From Terracoccus sp. 273MFTsu3.1 (lineage in GTDB: Bacteria; Actinomycetota; Actinomycetes; Actinomycetales; Dermatophilaceae): 64,000 nt of DNA. The position numbers and the translations under genes were made by a program. Location of the stretch: the NCBI RefSeq assembly GCF_000383675.1, contig NZ_KB911826.1, positions 1 to 64,000 on the forward strand, read 5' to 3'. Below, piece after piece: positions 55,457 through 63,962 of the stretch (position 1 is the first letter of the stretch; each line of letters starts with the position of its first letter). The notes beneath the pieces were generated by a model. The model was given only the letters and a program-made list of their open reading frames with translations, was not told the origin of the DNA and did not search any database.

Positions 55457-56773
55457 TCATGGCTCCAGGCGATGGAGGTCGCGCGGGAAGAGGGTCACCT
55501 CGCGGATGTTCTCGGCACCTGTCAGCCGCCCGACCCACCTTTCCAGACCGATGGCGAACCCGCCATGCGGAGGCATGCCGTGGGCGAAGGCGTCGAGGTA
55601 GCCGGCGAGGACCGCGGGGTCGGTCCCCGTGCGAGCCATCGCCGCTGCGTAGTCCGAGGGTCGGTGCAGGCGCTGCCCTCCGGTCGTCAGCTCGAGCCCG
55701 CGGAAGAGCAGGTCGAAGCTGTTGCTCCACCGCTCGTCGCCCGGCTGCGGGTGCGTGTAGAACGGCCGCTTGCCCATCGGATAGCCCTCCACCGCAAGGA
55801 AGTCCGAGCCGTATGCCGTCTTCGCCCACTCGCTGAGCGCGCGTTCGTGCGCGGGGCTGAGGTCGGGCTCGTCCGGGTCCGCGCCGACCTTCGCGAGGGC
55901 GTCGCTGAAGTGGATGACGGGGAACTGCTCCGGCACTTGCGGCAGCTCGACGCCCAGGAGCGCAGCGGCGTCGGCGGCATACTCCCGAATGCCCTCGACC
56001 ATGCCCGCGATCGCCTCGCGCAGGACGGCGAGCACGTCGTGGTGGTCACGGATGAAGCCGAGCTCGGCGTCGAGCGAGGTGTACTGCGCGAGGTGGCGCA
56101 CCGTGTCGTGCGGCTCGGCCCGGAAGACCGGGCCGACCTCGAAGACCCGCTCGAAGACCCCGACGAGCATCTGCTTGTAGAGCTGCGGGCTCTGCGCGAG
56201 GTAGCCCGTGCGTCCGAAGTAGTCGACCGTGAAGACGTTGGCGCCCGACTCGGTGGCCGTGCCGACGAGCTTCGGGGTGGCGATCTCGGTGAACTCGAGG
56301 CCGCCGAGCGCCGCCCGGAAGCCGCGCATCGACGCGCTCGCGAGCTGCCAGGCAGCCCGGTGGCGCGGATGGCGCAGGGTCACCGCCGCGTGGTCGAGGT
56401 GGGTGGGCAGCCCGGCGCCGAAGGTCGGGCGCCACAGCTCGGTCGGCGGGGCGACCGCCGGCTCGGTGAGCGCGGTGACCGCGGGTTCGACGACCTCGGC
56501 ACCGCCGGGGGCCGACGCGTTGGCCGACACGGTGCCGGTCACCTCGACGACGGTCTCCTCGGGCAGACCCGAGAGCTGGTCGACGGTCTCGCGGTCCTTG
56601 ACGACGACCTGGGCCAGGCCCGAACGGTCGCGTAGCACGAGGAACGTGACGCTCGCGAGGACGCGGCGCCGGTGGATCCAGCCGGCGAGGGTGACCCGCT
56701 CGCCGGGCTCGACGGACGCGAGGTCCCGCGCGAGCACGCGCGGAGCAAGGGTCGTGGGTTGGGTCGGTTGCAT
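55457..56773 (-). CDS. aspS: Archaeal-type aspartyl-tRNA synthetase (aspartate-tRNA(Asn/Asp) ligase)
   Basis: A 438-residue class II synthetase without the large insertion of the bacterial AspRS. It has an OB-fold anticodon domain (VTLAGWIHRRRVLASVTFLVLRDRSG), motif 2 FEVGPVFRAEPHDTVRHL, the flipping-loop region IATPKLVGTATESGANVF and motif 3 GFAIGLERWVGRLTG. This AspRS2 type is generally non-discriminating or serves Asn-tRNA formation with GatCAB. ATG 56773 is preceded by GGAGG at 8 bases. The leader looks like a translational T-box (see 56774-56914). A bacterial-type AspRS is expected elsewhere in the genome. Confidence 0.9.
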   Translation of the reverse strand: MQPTQPTTLAPRVLARDLASVEPGERVTLAGWIHRRRVLASVTFLVLRDRSGLAQVVVKDRETVDQLSGLPEETVVEVTGTVSANASAPGGAEVVEPAVTALTEPAVAPPTELWRPTFGAGLPTHLDHAAVTLRHPRHRAAWQLASASMRGFRAALGGLEFTEIATPKLVGTATESGANVFTVDYFGRTGYLAQSPQLYKQMLVGVFERVFEVGPVFRAEPHDTVRHLAQYTSLDAELGFIRDHHDVLAVLREAIAGMVEGIREYAADAAALLGVELPQVPEQFPVIHFSDALAKVGADPDEPDLSPAHERALSEWAKTAYGSDFLAVEGYPMGKRPFYTHPQPGDERWSNSFDLLFRGLELTTGGQRLHRPSDYAAAMARTGTDPAVLAGYLDAFAHGMPPHGGFAIGLERWVGRLTGAENIREVTLFPRDLHRLEP

Positions 56774-56914
56774 TCCGTTCACCTCCAGAGGGTTGGTGCC
56801 CCGGAGGTGTGGGCGATGGGGAATGTCGCTGTGCCACCACACCTTCGCCGCCGCGGATCGCGGTCGGCCTCTGGTTGTGCTCGGCTCAGGATCGTCAGGC
56901 CCGTCGTCGCCGTG
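56774..56914 (-). promoter_or_regulatory. Candidate T-box riboswitch leader, translational, before aspS
   Basis: Minus-strand leader. Helix A1: AGGTGTGG (56844-56837) pairs with CCACACCT (56812-56805). A 7-base bulge TGGCACA (56836-56830) follows, then helix A2 GCGA/TCGC closing a 9-base loop. This is the T-box antiterminator plan, with bulge UGGNACC in one mismatch; the fourth base C suits the G73 of tRNA-Asp and tRNA-Asn. The 3' strand can instead pair CACCTCC (56809-56803) with the Shine-Dalgarno GGAGGTG (56786-56780), hiding it. A CCGCG-ATC-CGCGG hairpin (56863-56851) precedes as a stem III. Stem I and the specifier are not resolved, though GAC triplets occur. Confidence 0.6.
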
Positions 56915-56919
56915 CGCCA

Positions 56920-56949
56920 AGGTTAGGCGCAACACGCACGCCCAGCCAA
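56920..56949 (-). promoter_or_regulatory. aspS promoter candidate
   Basis: On the minus strand TTGGCT (56949-56944) and TAACCT (56925-56920) are separated by 18 bases. Transcription would begin near 56913, giving a leader of about 140 bases that just contains the T-box-like structure. Confidence 0.5.
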
Positions 56950-57013
56950 CCCGGTTACCAGGCGGCGGCGCCGGCGAGCGGGACCTAAACCACCACGCGG
57001 AGGCGCCGGCGTC

Positions 57014-57274
57014 GCCTGGACGCAGCGCAGGGAGCGAGGAACGAGCGAGCGAAGCGGAGGAAGGCGACGCCACCGGGCGCCGCCGCCCGCGCCGGAACGG
57101 AGTGAGGCGCAGAGGACCCAGAGCCGCGGCGCCGACGGTGCCTGGACGCAGCGCAGCGAGCGAGGAACGAGCGAGCGGAGCGGAGGAAGGCGACGCCTGA
57201 CGGGCGCCGCGGCACGCGCCGCAGCGAAGCGAGGCGCCGACAGCAGGGCACGCGCCGCAGCGAAGCGAGGCGCC
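57014..57274. repeat. Direct repeats (58 bp twice, 28 bp twice) in the aspS-acuC gap
   Basis: A 58-bp unit occurs at 57014-57071 and 57140-57197 with two mismatches; its centre is GCGAGGAACGAGCGAGCG. A 28-bp unit occurs identically at 57211-57238 and 57247-57274 and contains CGCAGCGAAGCGAGGCGCC. The region 56950-57280 holds no gene. Similar GAGCGAGGAACGAGCGAGCG stretches are widespread in actinobacterial intergenic DNA. Confidence 0.9.
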
Positions 57275-62397: not shown

Positions 62398-63138
62398 ATG
62401 GCTCGCCCGACCGCCACCCGACGACCCGTGCCCGCCGCCCTCGCCGCCGTGGCACTGCCTCTCGTGCTCGCCGCCTGCGGCCAGCCGACCGCGACGCCGT
62501 CTGCCGCCACCAGCCCGGTCGGCTCGGCCGGAACGGCAGGCGCCACCGGTGCCTCGACGAGCCCCGCCGCCGACGACCCGCCGCTCACCCCGCCGTCGAG
62601 CGTCGTGCCAGCCCGCGTGCACGCCACCGCAGCCGTCGCCGCCTACTTCCGTGGTCACGACCTCCGGGGGCTGACCCGCACGGACGACGAGTCGGTGACC
62701 GAGGCCGTCCTCACGTCGTGCCCCGCCGGGCCCACCGTGGCCCGGGACGCCGGCCCGACGGCATACGCCCGCTCCTGGGAAGGACCGGGAGGCGTCCGCG
62801 CCGACGTCGCCGCGATCACCTACCCCGACCTCGCGTCCGCGGCGCAGGCGGCCGAGCCGCTGCTCGCCGCGGCGCAGGCCTGTCGGGCACCCCGGCCGGC
62901 CAAGGGCATCACGACGACCGTCGCCAACCAACGCCGCGACGTGGCGGAGGGTATGCCGCTCGGCCGGGTCGACGTGACCCGGACCTCCCCGGACGAGACC
63001 CGCCACGACTACGTCGGCGTCGTGCAGGTGGGCAACGTGCTCGTGCGCCTCACCTACTCGTCCGTCGACGCGAAGGTCGCCACAGAGAAGGGGTCGACGG
63101 CGCTCGCGCTGCTGGCCCGGGACGTGCAGAGGCTCTGA
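62398..63138 (+). CDS. Exported lipoprotein of unknown function
   Basis: A 246-residue protein with a lipoprotein signal: basic start ARPTATRR, hydrophobic core and lipobox LVLAACG (Cys at about 27). A Ser/Thr/Ala/Pro linker of about 35 residues leads to a soluble domain (VVPARVHATAAVAAYF..). No family recognised; the domain resembles generic actinobacterial sensor-like lipoproteins. Two GGCATAC/GTATGCC words lie in the gene. The stop overlaps the next gene as TGATG, implying shared translation. Confidence 0.82.
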   Translation: MARPTATRRPVPAALAAVALPLVLAACGQPTATPSAATSPVGSAGTAGATGASTSPAADDPPLTPPSSVVPARVHATAAVAAYFRGHDLRGLTRTDDESVTEAVLTSCPAGPTVARDAGPTAYARSWEGPGGVRADVAAITYPDLASAAQAAEPLLAAAQACRAPRPAKGITTTVANQRRDVAEGMPLGRVDVTRTSPDETRHDYVGVVQVGNVLVRLTYSSVDAKVATEKGSTALALLARDVQRL

Positions 63139-63962
63139 TGCCCACGATCGACGACGCCGCCCTCGCCGCGCCCGGACCGCTCGGCGTCACCCTCGACGAC
63201 CTCGGCGAGGCCCTCGGGGGCGCCGCGACCGTGCTGCGCGCCAACGCGATGGCCGCCGGCCTCGACTCGCCCGTCCCGACGTGCCCCGACTGGACGGTGC
63301 TCGACCTCGTCGTCCACCAGGGCATGGTCCACCGCTGGGCCGCGAGCCACCTGCGCGGCGAGCCCGTCGAGCCACCGGAGCCGCTCGAGCGTGAGGGCCG
63401 CGAGTCCTCCGACCTGCTCGGCTGGTTCGACGACGGGGCGACGGCGCTGCTCCAGGCCATCGTCGATGCGCCGGACGACCTCGACGCGGTCGTGTTCCTC
63501 AAGGACGCGCCTGCCCCACGGCTCTTCTGGACGCGCCGGCAGTGCCACGAGACGACGGTCCACGCCGTCGACGCGCTCGGGGCCCGGCTCGGACGGCCCG
63601 CGCGCGCCGACGAGACGTGGATCCGGCCCGCCGTCGCGCTCGACGGCATCGACGAGCTGCTCGTCGGCTTCGTCACCCGCCGCAAGGAGGGAGCCTCACC
63701 CGGCGCTCCGACCCGGCTGCTCGTGCGCCCCGACGGCGCCGACGTCGCGTGGCTCGTCGACCTCGACACCGGCCGGCCGATCCGGACCAGCCGGGTCCGG
63801 TCGGGGTCCGGTGGTTCCGGCGGTGCCGACGCCGACCACGTCCTGACCGGCGACCCCGTCGACCTCTACCTGCGACTGTGGAGCCGCGGCGCTACCGAGC
63901 CGGCGGAGCCCGTCACGGAGCTCGAGCGCTGGTGGCGCGAGAACATCTCGATCTCGTGGTGA
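63138..63962 (+). CDS. Maleylpyruvate isomerase / mycothiol-dependent (DinB-like) family protein
   Basis: A 274-residue protein of the TIGR03083 actinobacterial group. The N-terminal MDMPI domain has the characteristic PTCPDWTVLDLVVHQGMVHRW with the metal-binding His, and a second His in QCHETTVHAVDALGA; a smaller C-terminal domain follows. Members are thought to use mycothiol, but the reaction is unknown for most. ATG 63138 overlaps the lipoprotein stop. The remaining 38 bases of the window hold nothing recognisable. Confidence 0.85.
   Translation: MPTIDDAALAAPGPLGVTLDDLGEALGGAATVLRANAMAAGLDSPVPTCPDWTVLDLVVHQGMVHRWAASHLRGEPVEPPEPLEREGRESSDLLGWFDDGATALLQAIVDAPDDLDAVVFLKDAPAPRLFWTRRQCHETTVHAVDALGARLGRPARADETWIRPAVALDGIDELLVGFVTRRKEGASPGAPTRLLVRPDGADVAWLVDLDTGRPIRTSRVRSGSGGSGGADADHVLTGDPVDLYLRLWSRGATEPAEPVTELERWWRENISISW

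Follow-up and report, generated by a model that had tools for sequence, protein, structure and literature searches.

How might an actinobacterium control an archaeal-type aspartyl-tRNA synthetase (AspRS) through a leader of only about 140 nt? The window analysed here, a stretch of 64,000 nucleotides from Terracoccus sp. 273MFTsu3.1, carries such a gene, aspS2, behind a leader that reads from 56913 to 56774 on the minus strand. The original prediction took this leader for a compact T-box-like riboswitch that hides the Shine-Dalgarno (SD) sequence. From structures of the ileS T-boxes came the view that the codon-anticodon pairs on a short stem I must be held by stem II; in the accessible part of one review, stem II is deemed essential when stem I is short (PMC7583486), and the accessible text of another paper likewise stresses this dependence for ileS (PMC10651847). 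As detailed below, the window leader is very probably a translational T-box riboswitch for tRNA-Asp, which would bind the tRNA and switch in response. It looks like a known kind of switch on an unexpected gene, without two parts that were thought to be needed. Its features are as follows.

56920-56925, minus strand: putative -10 element TAACCT, at the TANNNT position of related leaders
about 56913, minus strand: predicted transcription start, placed from the putative -10 element
56883-56911, minus strand: ultrashort stem I, GGC / GACGA (K-turn-like) / CGGG, loop CCUGACGAU, CCUG / A / GCC
56894-56896, minus strand: specifier codon GAC (Asp), read from UGAC in short leaders and GAA-GAC in long leaders
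56869-56882, minus strand: 14-nt linker GAGCACAACCAGAG, read from sequence, at the site where stem II and IIA/B would fall
56847-56868, minus strand: stem III, with four outer pairs, every one with a two-sided change among 35 leaders
56805-56844, minus strand: antisequestrator (A1, T-box bulge, A2), from sequence and covariation
56843-56837 with 56812-56806, minus strand: A1, GGUGUGG/CCACACC, with A56844-U56805 as eighth pair
56830-56836, minus strand: T-box bulge UGGCACA, whose UGGC can pair with GCCA of tRNA-Asp
56829-56826 with 56816-56813, minus strand: A2, GCGA/UCGC, from sequence
56780-56809, minus strand: sequestrator hairpin hiding the SD, from folding of related aspS2 tails
56809-56803, minus strand: anti-SD CACCUCC, full complement of the SD
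56780-56786, minus strand: SD GGAGGUG, from sequence
56773-56771, minus strand: ATG of aspS2, from sequence
55457-56773, minus strand: aspS2, archaeal-type AspRS of 438 aa, probably non-discriminating (NF003483; closest solved chain 1n9w)

The letters bear out the architecture first proposed. A1 (8 bp), the 7-base bulge and A2 (4 bp) are all present on the minus strand, and the bulge is one base off UGGNACC, its last base being A in the window and C in many relatives, which carry the canonical UGGCACC. The 3' strand of A1 indeed overlaps an anti-SD that is fully complementary to GGAGGTG, with the five positions 56809-56805 common to both; the anti-SD/SD hairpin extends to 11 bp in the window. 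At the base of stem I, the drawn fold places GACGA opposite a single A, and by this drawing and by alignment it resembles the corresponding region of the RF00230 consensus. Stem I is conserved among relatives' leaders, and the arms of its apical hairpin covary.

Rfam does not recover the window leader. The scan of the window reported no T-box at E<=10, only chance matches; RF00230 run across the genome gave a single weak place elsewhere, at 15.1 bits. The RF00230 gathering cut-off (93 bits), which the window does not reach, reflects the limits of detection and does not define a T-box. Since Rfam misses the leader, T-box identity was tested by kinship with longer leaders. Across named genomes, orthologous genes have leaders that range by degrees from full T-boxes down to the form found in the window, and RF00230 matches 21 of 24 longer-leader loci at E<=0.1. 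Nine of the first 10 were matched at this threshold, namely L053 (94.4 bits, above the cut-off), L051 (64.5), L059 (55.6), L049 (52.8), L047 (49.8), L062 (48.9), L052 (48.6), L043 (43.7) and L044 (28.0), with L056 missed. Fourteen further loci yielded 12 matches at E<=4.2e-5, the best being L060 at 92.6 bits; L163 and L160 reached only E 0.31 and 0.42. Among the relatives scanned, L053 alone exceeds the cut-off, L060 lying just below it, and eight related loci, two with a longer stem I included, went unseen by Rfam at E<=1.

The strongest single test of T-box identity is a hold-out search with model R2, which describes stem III and the antisequestrator and was trained on the same 24 longer leaders, none of them from the window's family. 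In the 4.94 Mb genome, the top match of R2 is the window leader (73.3 bits, E 1.5e-12), and the runner-up scores 22.6 bits. The training leaders had been found with model R1, itself trained on the window family too (11 of 24), or through protein search (13 of 24). Leaders were chosen on the bulge motif, and in most of them the inner part of A1 was paired; this selection inflates the percentage paired and affects two-sided change less. This homology to accepted members, through R2 and the RF00230-matching longer leaders, is joined by three traits of the leader itself: A1, a 7-nt bulge starting 5'-UGGN and A2, with N matching the tRNA discriminator; a specifier codon for the amino acid of the downstream gene; and an SD sequestrator that shares the 3' arm of A1.

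These results bear on the simplest alternative, a plain SD-masking hairpin that binds no tRNA and resembles a T-box by chance. High GC makes hairpins common, and the folding energy of the leader is not unusual, with modest z-scores (z -1.55 and z -1.26); the R2 scores nevertheless already disfavour such a coincidence, and the Rfam matches to orthologous leaders and the covariation described below make it exceedingly unlikely. Separately, a few model matches were discarded as chance: L164 and L165 (class-level R1 matches, 31 bits) lack the bulge motif and, by tblastn, an AspRS, and L222 (R2 match, 33 bits) lacks the T-box bulge and antisequestrator, its frames being not synthetase-like by eye.

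In leader alignments, A1, A2, stem III and the stem I hairpin all covary, the sequestrator weakly. Alignment A1 (a label distinct from helix A1) holds 35 of 40 leaders, identical ones dropped, and excludes the Chloroflexi/Firmicutes leaders L051, L053, L055, L057, L060, L061, L063, L064 and L066. Of its 524 cells, 98.1% are paired, and two-sided change is seen at 7 of 15 pairs; the observed values were reached by 0 of 500 shuffles. Alignment A3 consists of 24 leaders, 8 of them in common with alignment A1 and five of them from the nine Chloroflexi/Firmicutes leaders (L061, L063, L064 and L066 are in neither alignment). Here, two-sided change occurs in 7 of 11 pairs (28 cells), with a covariation score reached by 0/500 shuffles and a number of further pair types not clearly above shuffles (81/500).

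For stem I, 108 of the 125 cells in the arms around N2-UGAC-N3 of short leaders are paired, where re-dealing the 3' arms gives 89.2 (sd 3.8; 0/5000), in a test where slides of +1 to +3 were uncountable. It drew on the 51 of 78 short leaders that have just one TGAC, amounting to 25 distinct strings; the 27 with several TGAC were set aside to prevent choice by pairing. The third stem I pair is seen as C-G, G-C, U-A, A-U and G-U, with two mismatches. On the sequestrator side the signal is modest: the pair beside the SD core forms in 11 of 17 distinct forms, against 7.6 shuffled, with 64 of 5000 shuffles as good, and the core itself, being invariant, cannot be judged by covariation. Of the competing helices, A1 and A2 covary, and the SD-pairing one does so modestly, at the pair beside its core. 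Together, the R2 search, Rfam on relatives and covariation support the T-box identity, the SD-hiding logic and the very short stem I of the original prediction.

Folding of related tails points the same way for the sequestrator. Forty-three of 44 distinct tails (45 aspS2 loci) fold with the SD paired to a strand overlapping A1, the set leaving out L052, L059, L142, L148-L150, L153-L155 and L157-L163, which have different actinobacterial tails, as well as the non-actinobacterial loci. The one tail of the 44 scored as unsequestered is that of L140, in which the script had taken a later GGAGA for the SD. In the window, the drawn ON and OFF states have energies of -34.6 and -39.9 kcal/mol, respectively, an order that is expected if bound tRNA must pay for ON. 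Apart from the SD hairpin and stem III, the unconstrained minimum-energy fold (-63.8) matches neither state, and it pairs the antisequestrator strands differently, so energies alone prove nothing.

Other expression platforms may occur elsewhere. By eye, the Chloroflexi aspS2 leaders L051, L053, L057 and L060 show terminator-like hairpins after A1, so aspS2 may be controlled at transcription in that group. The bacterial aspS leaders L022, L023, L025, L028 and L030 have a conserved CCGCGCGUNCGGCG..CCGACGAGAGG between stem I and stem III and a start codon well downstream of the antisequestrator, and their expression platform is hence probably unlike the aspS2 one.

Which tRNA would such a leader sense? 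UGAC is found at least once upstream in 78/78 short leaders, and the long leaders aligned to Rfam carry GAC, never AAC, after GAA (9/9), a place that we take to be the specifier position. ARAGORN read 35 tRNA genes in 20 stretches, out of 50 Rfam tRNA matches; at least one tRNA-Asp gene of the genome has anticodon GUC and G73, and G73 is also present in both tRNA-Asn genes read. The bulge C can therefore face G73 in tRNA-Asp and tRNA-Asn alike, as had been claimed, and with G73 of tRNA-Asp the bulge UGGC can pair with GCCA. The specifier GAC indicates that the sensed tRNA is Asp, not Asn. A serS leader is a natural control for reading GAC in this way: L156 (G423:C45, about 63063-63148, minus strand), from a 9.4 Mb genome of the class draw, matches RF00230 at 62.8 bits and precedes a serine--tRNA ligase gene (TIGR00414 362.6 bits, cut-off 301.65), and its specifier place reads UCC, a Ser codon.

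The downstream enzyme raises the question of tRNA-Asn from another side. The archaeal type of the aspS2 product is confirmed by its match to NF003483, 'aspartate--tRNA(Asn) ligase' (523.9 bits, cut-off 353), and by its nearest solved chain, the AspRS2 1n9w (E 7e-107); the stricter TIGR00458 gives 340.5 bits, under its cut-off of 368.4. In an alignment, the window protein shares the His in GWIH and the Pro in SAPGG with 1n9w; the archaeal chain 3nel carries Trp and Lys there. We take these two positions to separate non-discriminating from discriminating AspRS enzymes. The encoded AspRS is probably non-discriminating. The genome also encodes a bacterial AspRS and has no asnS-model match above that model's cut-off. 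A leader sensing tRNA-Asn, or the Asp and Asn tRNAs both, would suit an enzyme that charges both, a genome without such a match and the G73 of the tRNA-Asn genes, yet it is at odds with UGAC in every short leader and with GAA-GAC, not AAC, in every long leader aligned. We rejected Asn sensing on the specifier GAC and regard it as very improbable; of the Asp/Asn-responsive leader first envisaged, the Asp half stands and the Asn half does not.

The element had also been proposed to control AspRS2. It does precede aspS2 here, but it is not confined to that gene and in related genera precedes bacterial aspS. Across 186 genomes of the family, R1 gave one strong match (57.2 to 91.5 bits) in 70 and no strong match in 116, the remaining matches at E<=0.1 scoring 29.4 bits or less. 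AspRS2 is encoded at E<=1e-80 in 26 of the 186, with the element directly upstream in 26/26; 43 of the other 44 strong matches precede bacterial aspS, and for one the contig ends too early to tell. The bulge motif occurs in none of the bacterial aspS leaders read from 15 family genomes with aspS2, and it is also missing from that of G049, a genome of the same order with aspS2. By the placement of matches and these bulge-less leaders, the element in our sample sits on one AspRS gene or the other, or on neither. In a class draw of 394 genomes, 27, counting that of the window, had a match at E<=0.001. AspRS2-type genes follow 22 of these matches (one just 39% identical), bacterial aspS follows 2 and serS 1, and 2 weak matches have neither AspRS nor serS downstream.

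As a separate observation, the interval 56997-57274 of the window, between aspS2 and the next gene, holds GC-rich direct repeats: a 75-nt unit occurs twice (91% alike, 126 nt apart) and a 28-nt unit three times. A 91-nt repeat query matches just those two places genome-wide, and similar stretches are seen by eye upstream of aspS2 in other Terrabacter genomes.

The Terrabacter-type leaders, the window's included, lack distal stem I and stem II. The double T-loop of distal stem I (AGAGA / GNUG regions) is absent from all of these, and the AGAGA region is present in L043, L052, L059 and others; the stem II S-turn and the IIA/B pseudoknot are absent from the window, which has the 14-nt linker only. 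The spacing from specifier to stem III, read from the sequence, is 25 nt in the window. It is 24-28 nt in L043, L047, L049, L056, L062, L017 and L145, which have a long stem I and no room for stem II, and 86 and 76 nt in L052 and L053, whose Rfam alignment includes stem II and IIA/B. Automatic stem III placement mis-set the start in several leaders, the window's among them. In short leaders of bacterial aspS, and in those of certain other genera, stems I and III are separated by a longer insert, which measures about 40-108 nt in the cases with a plausible stem III placement; the minimal form is thus one of several. By eye, L161 (G272) is a possible intermediate, with a short stem I (GGAGCAGACACUCC) followed by a long region resembling stem II and IIA/B.

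This layout resembles two known ones in different respects. Like the window leader, the translational ileS T-boxes of Nocardia farcinica and Mycobacterium tuberculosis have, in the accessible parts of the sources, a stem I without the elbow-binding motif, a specifier in the apical loop of this short stem and an antisequestrator set against an SD sequestrator (PMC7583486; PMC1262725). The window leader differs from them in reading Asp rather than Ile and in having the 14-nt linker in place of the stem II S-turn and IIA/B pseudoknot. Glycyl T-boxes (glyQS), as far as the accessible text of the review goes, share the lack of a stem II domain (PMC7583486); they keep a long stem I with double T-loop and act on transcription, whereas the window has neither a long stem I nor a terminator-like site. 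RF00230 matches longer leaders of orthologous aspS2 genes, and the window leader goes unreported even at E 10.

Without elbow contact and stem II, tRNA affinity could be too low. The leader might accordingly be a decayed T-box that lost stem II and distal stem I and binds no tRNA, its SD hairpin alone still lowering translation. Parts considered essential in the accessible portions of two sources are indeed missing (PMC7583486; PMC10651847), and the drawn ON state is less stable than the OFF hairpin by 5.3 kcal/mol. Decay is hard to reconcile, however, with a loop GAC and a bulge UGGCAC that stay unchanged across 14 Terrabacter-type leaders despite divergence of the DNA immediately upstream, or with the recurrence of similar spacing in other lineages, and we consider it improbable. 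A substitute for the missing parts further upstream was also weighed. A consensus scan found no full sigma-70 site at the window leader, and a terminator scan no terminator-like site; among 19 related, non-independent leaders, 16 have a TANNNT that begins 12-14 nt before ACGGCG, the first bases of stem I. This placement would put the RNA start at stem I, so RNA upstream of it is unlikely to stand in for the missing domains.

From the sequence elements, alternative pairings, covariation, specifier and discriminator match and gene association we infer how a T-box for tRNA-Asp would bind tRNA, sense its charging and switch, and what it would be for. Uncharged tRNA-Asp would pair with the leader at both ends, the anticodon GUC binding the loop codon GAC of the very short stem I and the free GCCA end binding the bulge UGGC. 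This pairing would stabilise the antisequestrator and free GGAGGUG, and aspS2 would be translated. Charged tRNA-Asp would be unable to hold the antisequestrator; the anti-SD would then take the SD, and translation would stop. The cell would accordingly make AspRS2 when charging of tRNA-Asp by the housekeeping AspRS falls short, as a back-up enzyme induced by lasting uncharged tRNA-Asp under Asp shortage or an AspRS inhibitor. Self-resistance through a second synthetase is known for other synthetases, according to the accessible part of one paper (PMC9437257).

On balance, we lean towards a working T-box without elbow contact or stem II, in which a 29-nt stem I, the 14-nt linker and the discriminator domain would be enough for specific control. 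It would derive from glyQS-like layouts still found on aspS2 in Nocardioides relatives, with their similar 24-28 nt specifier-stem III spacing, and would alternate between two unlike AspRS genes, AspRS2 serving as the starvation- or inhibitor-induced back-up. In the accessible text of a 2005 survey, actinobacterial T-boxes stand before ileS, with no others (PMC1262725); the part seen of Wels 2008 counts 32 T-boxes in Actinobacteria and puts eighteen in Symbiobacterium (PMC2494555), and TBDB, by its accessible description, searched Actinobacteria with its own class II model (PMC7778990). The literature searched, as far as its text was accessible, holds no report of an Asp T-box in Actinobacteria, although some such leaders may be listed in TBDB, of a T-box alternating between two unlike AspRS genes, or of a layout from which stem II and the elbow-binding part of stem I are both absent.

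A conserved natural leader that has neither allows a direct test of the view that a short stem I depends on stem II, and the window leader could supply a very small T-box module for engineering. For the Actinobacteria, T-box control, in a short form that Rfam misses, is extended to aspS and, in one case, to serS.
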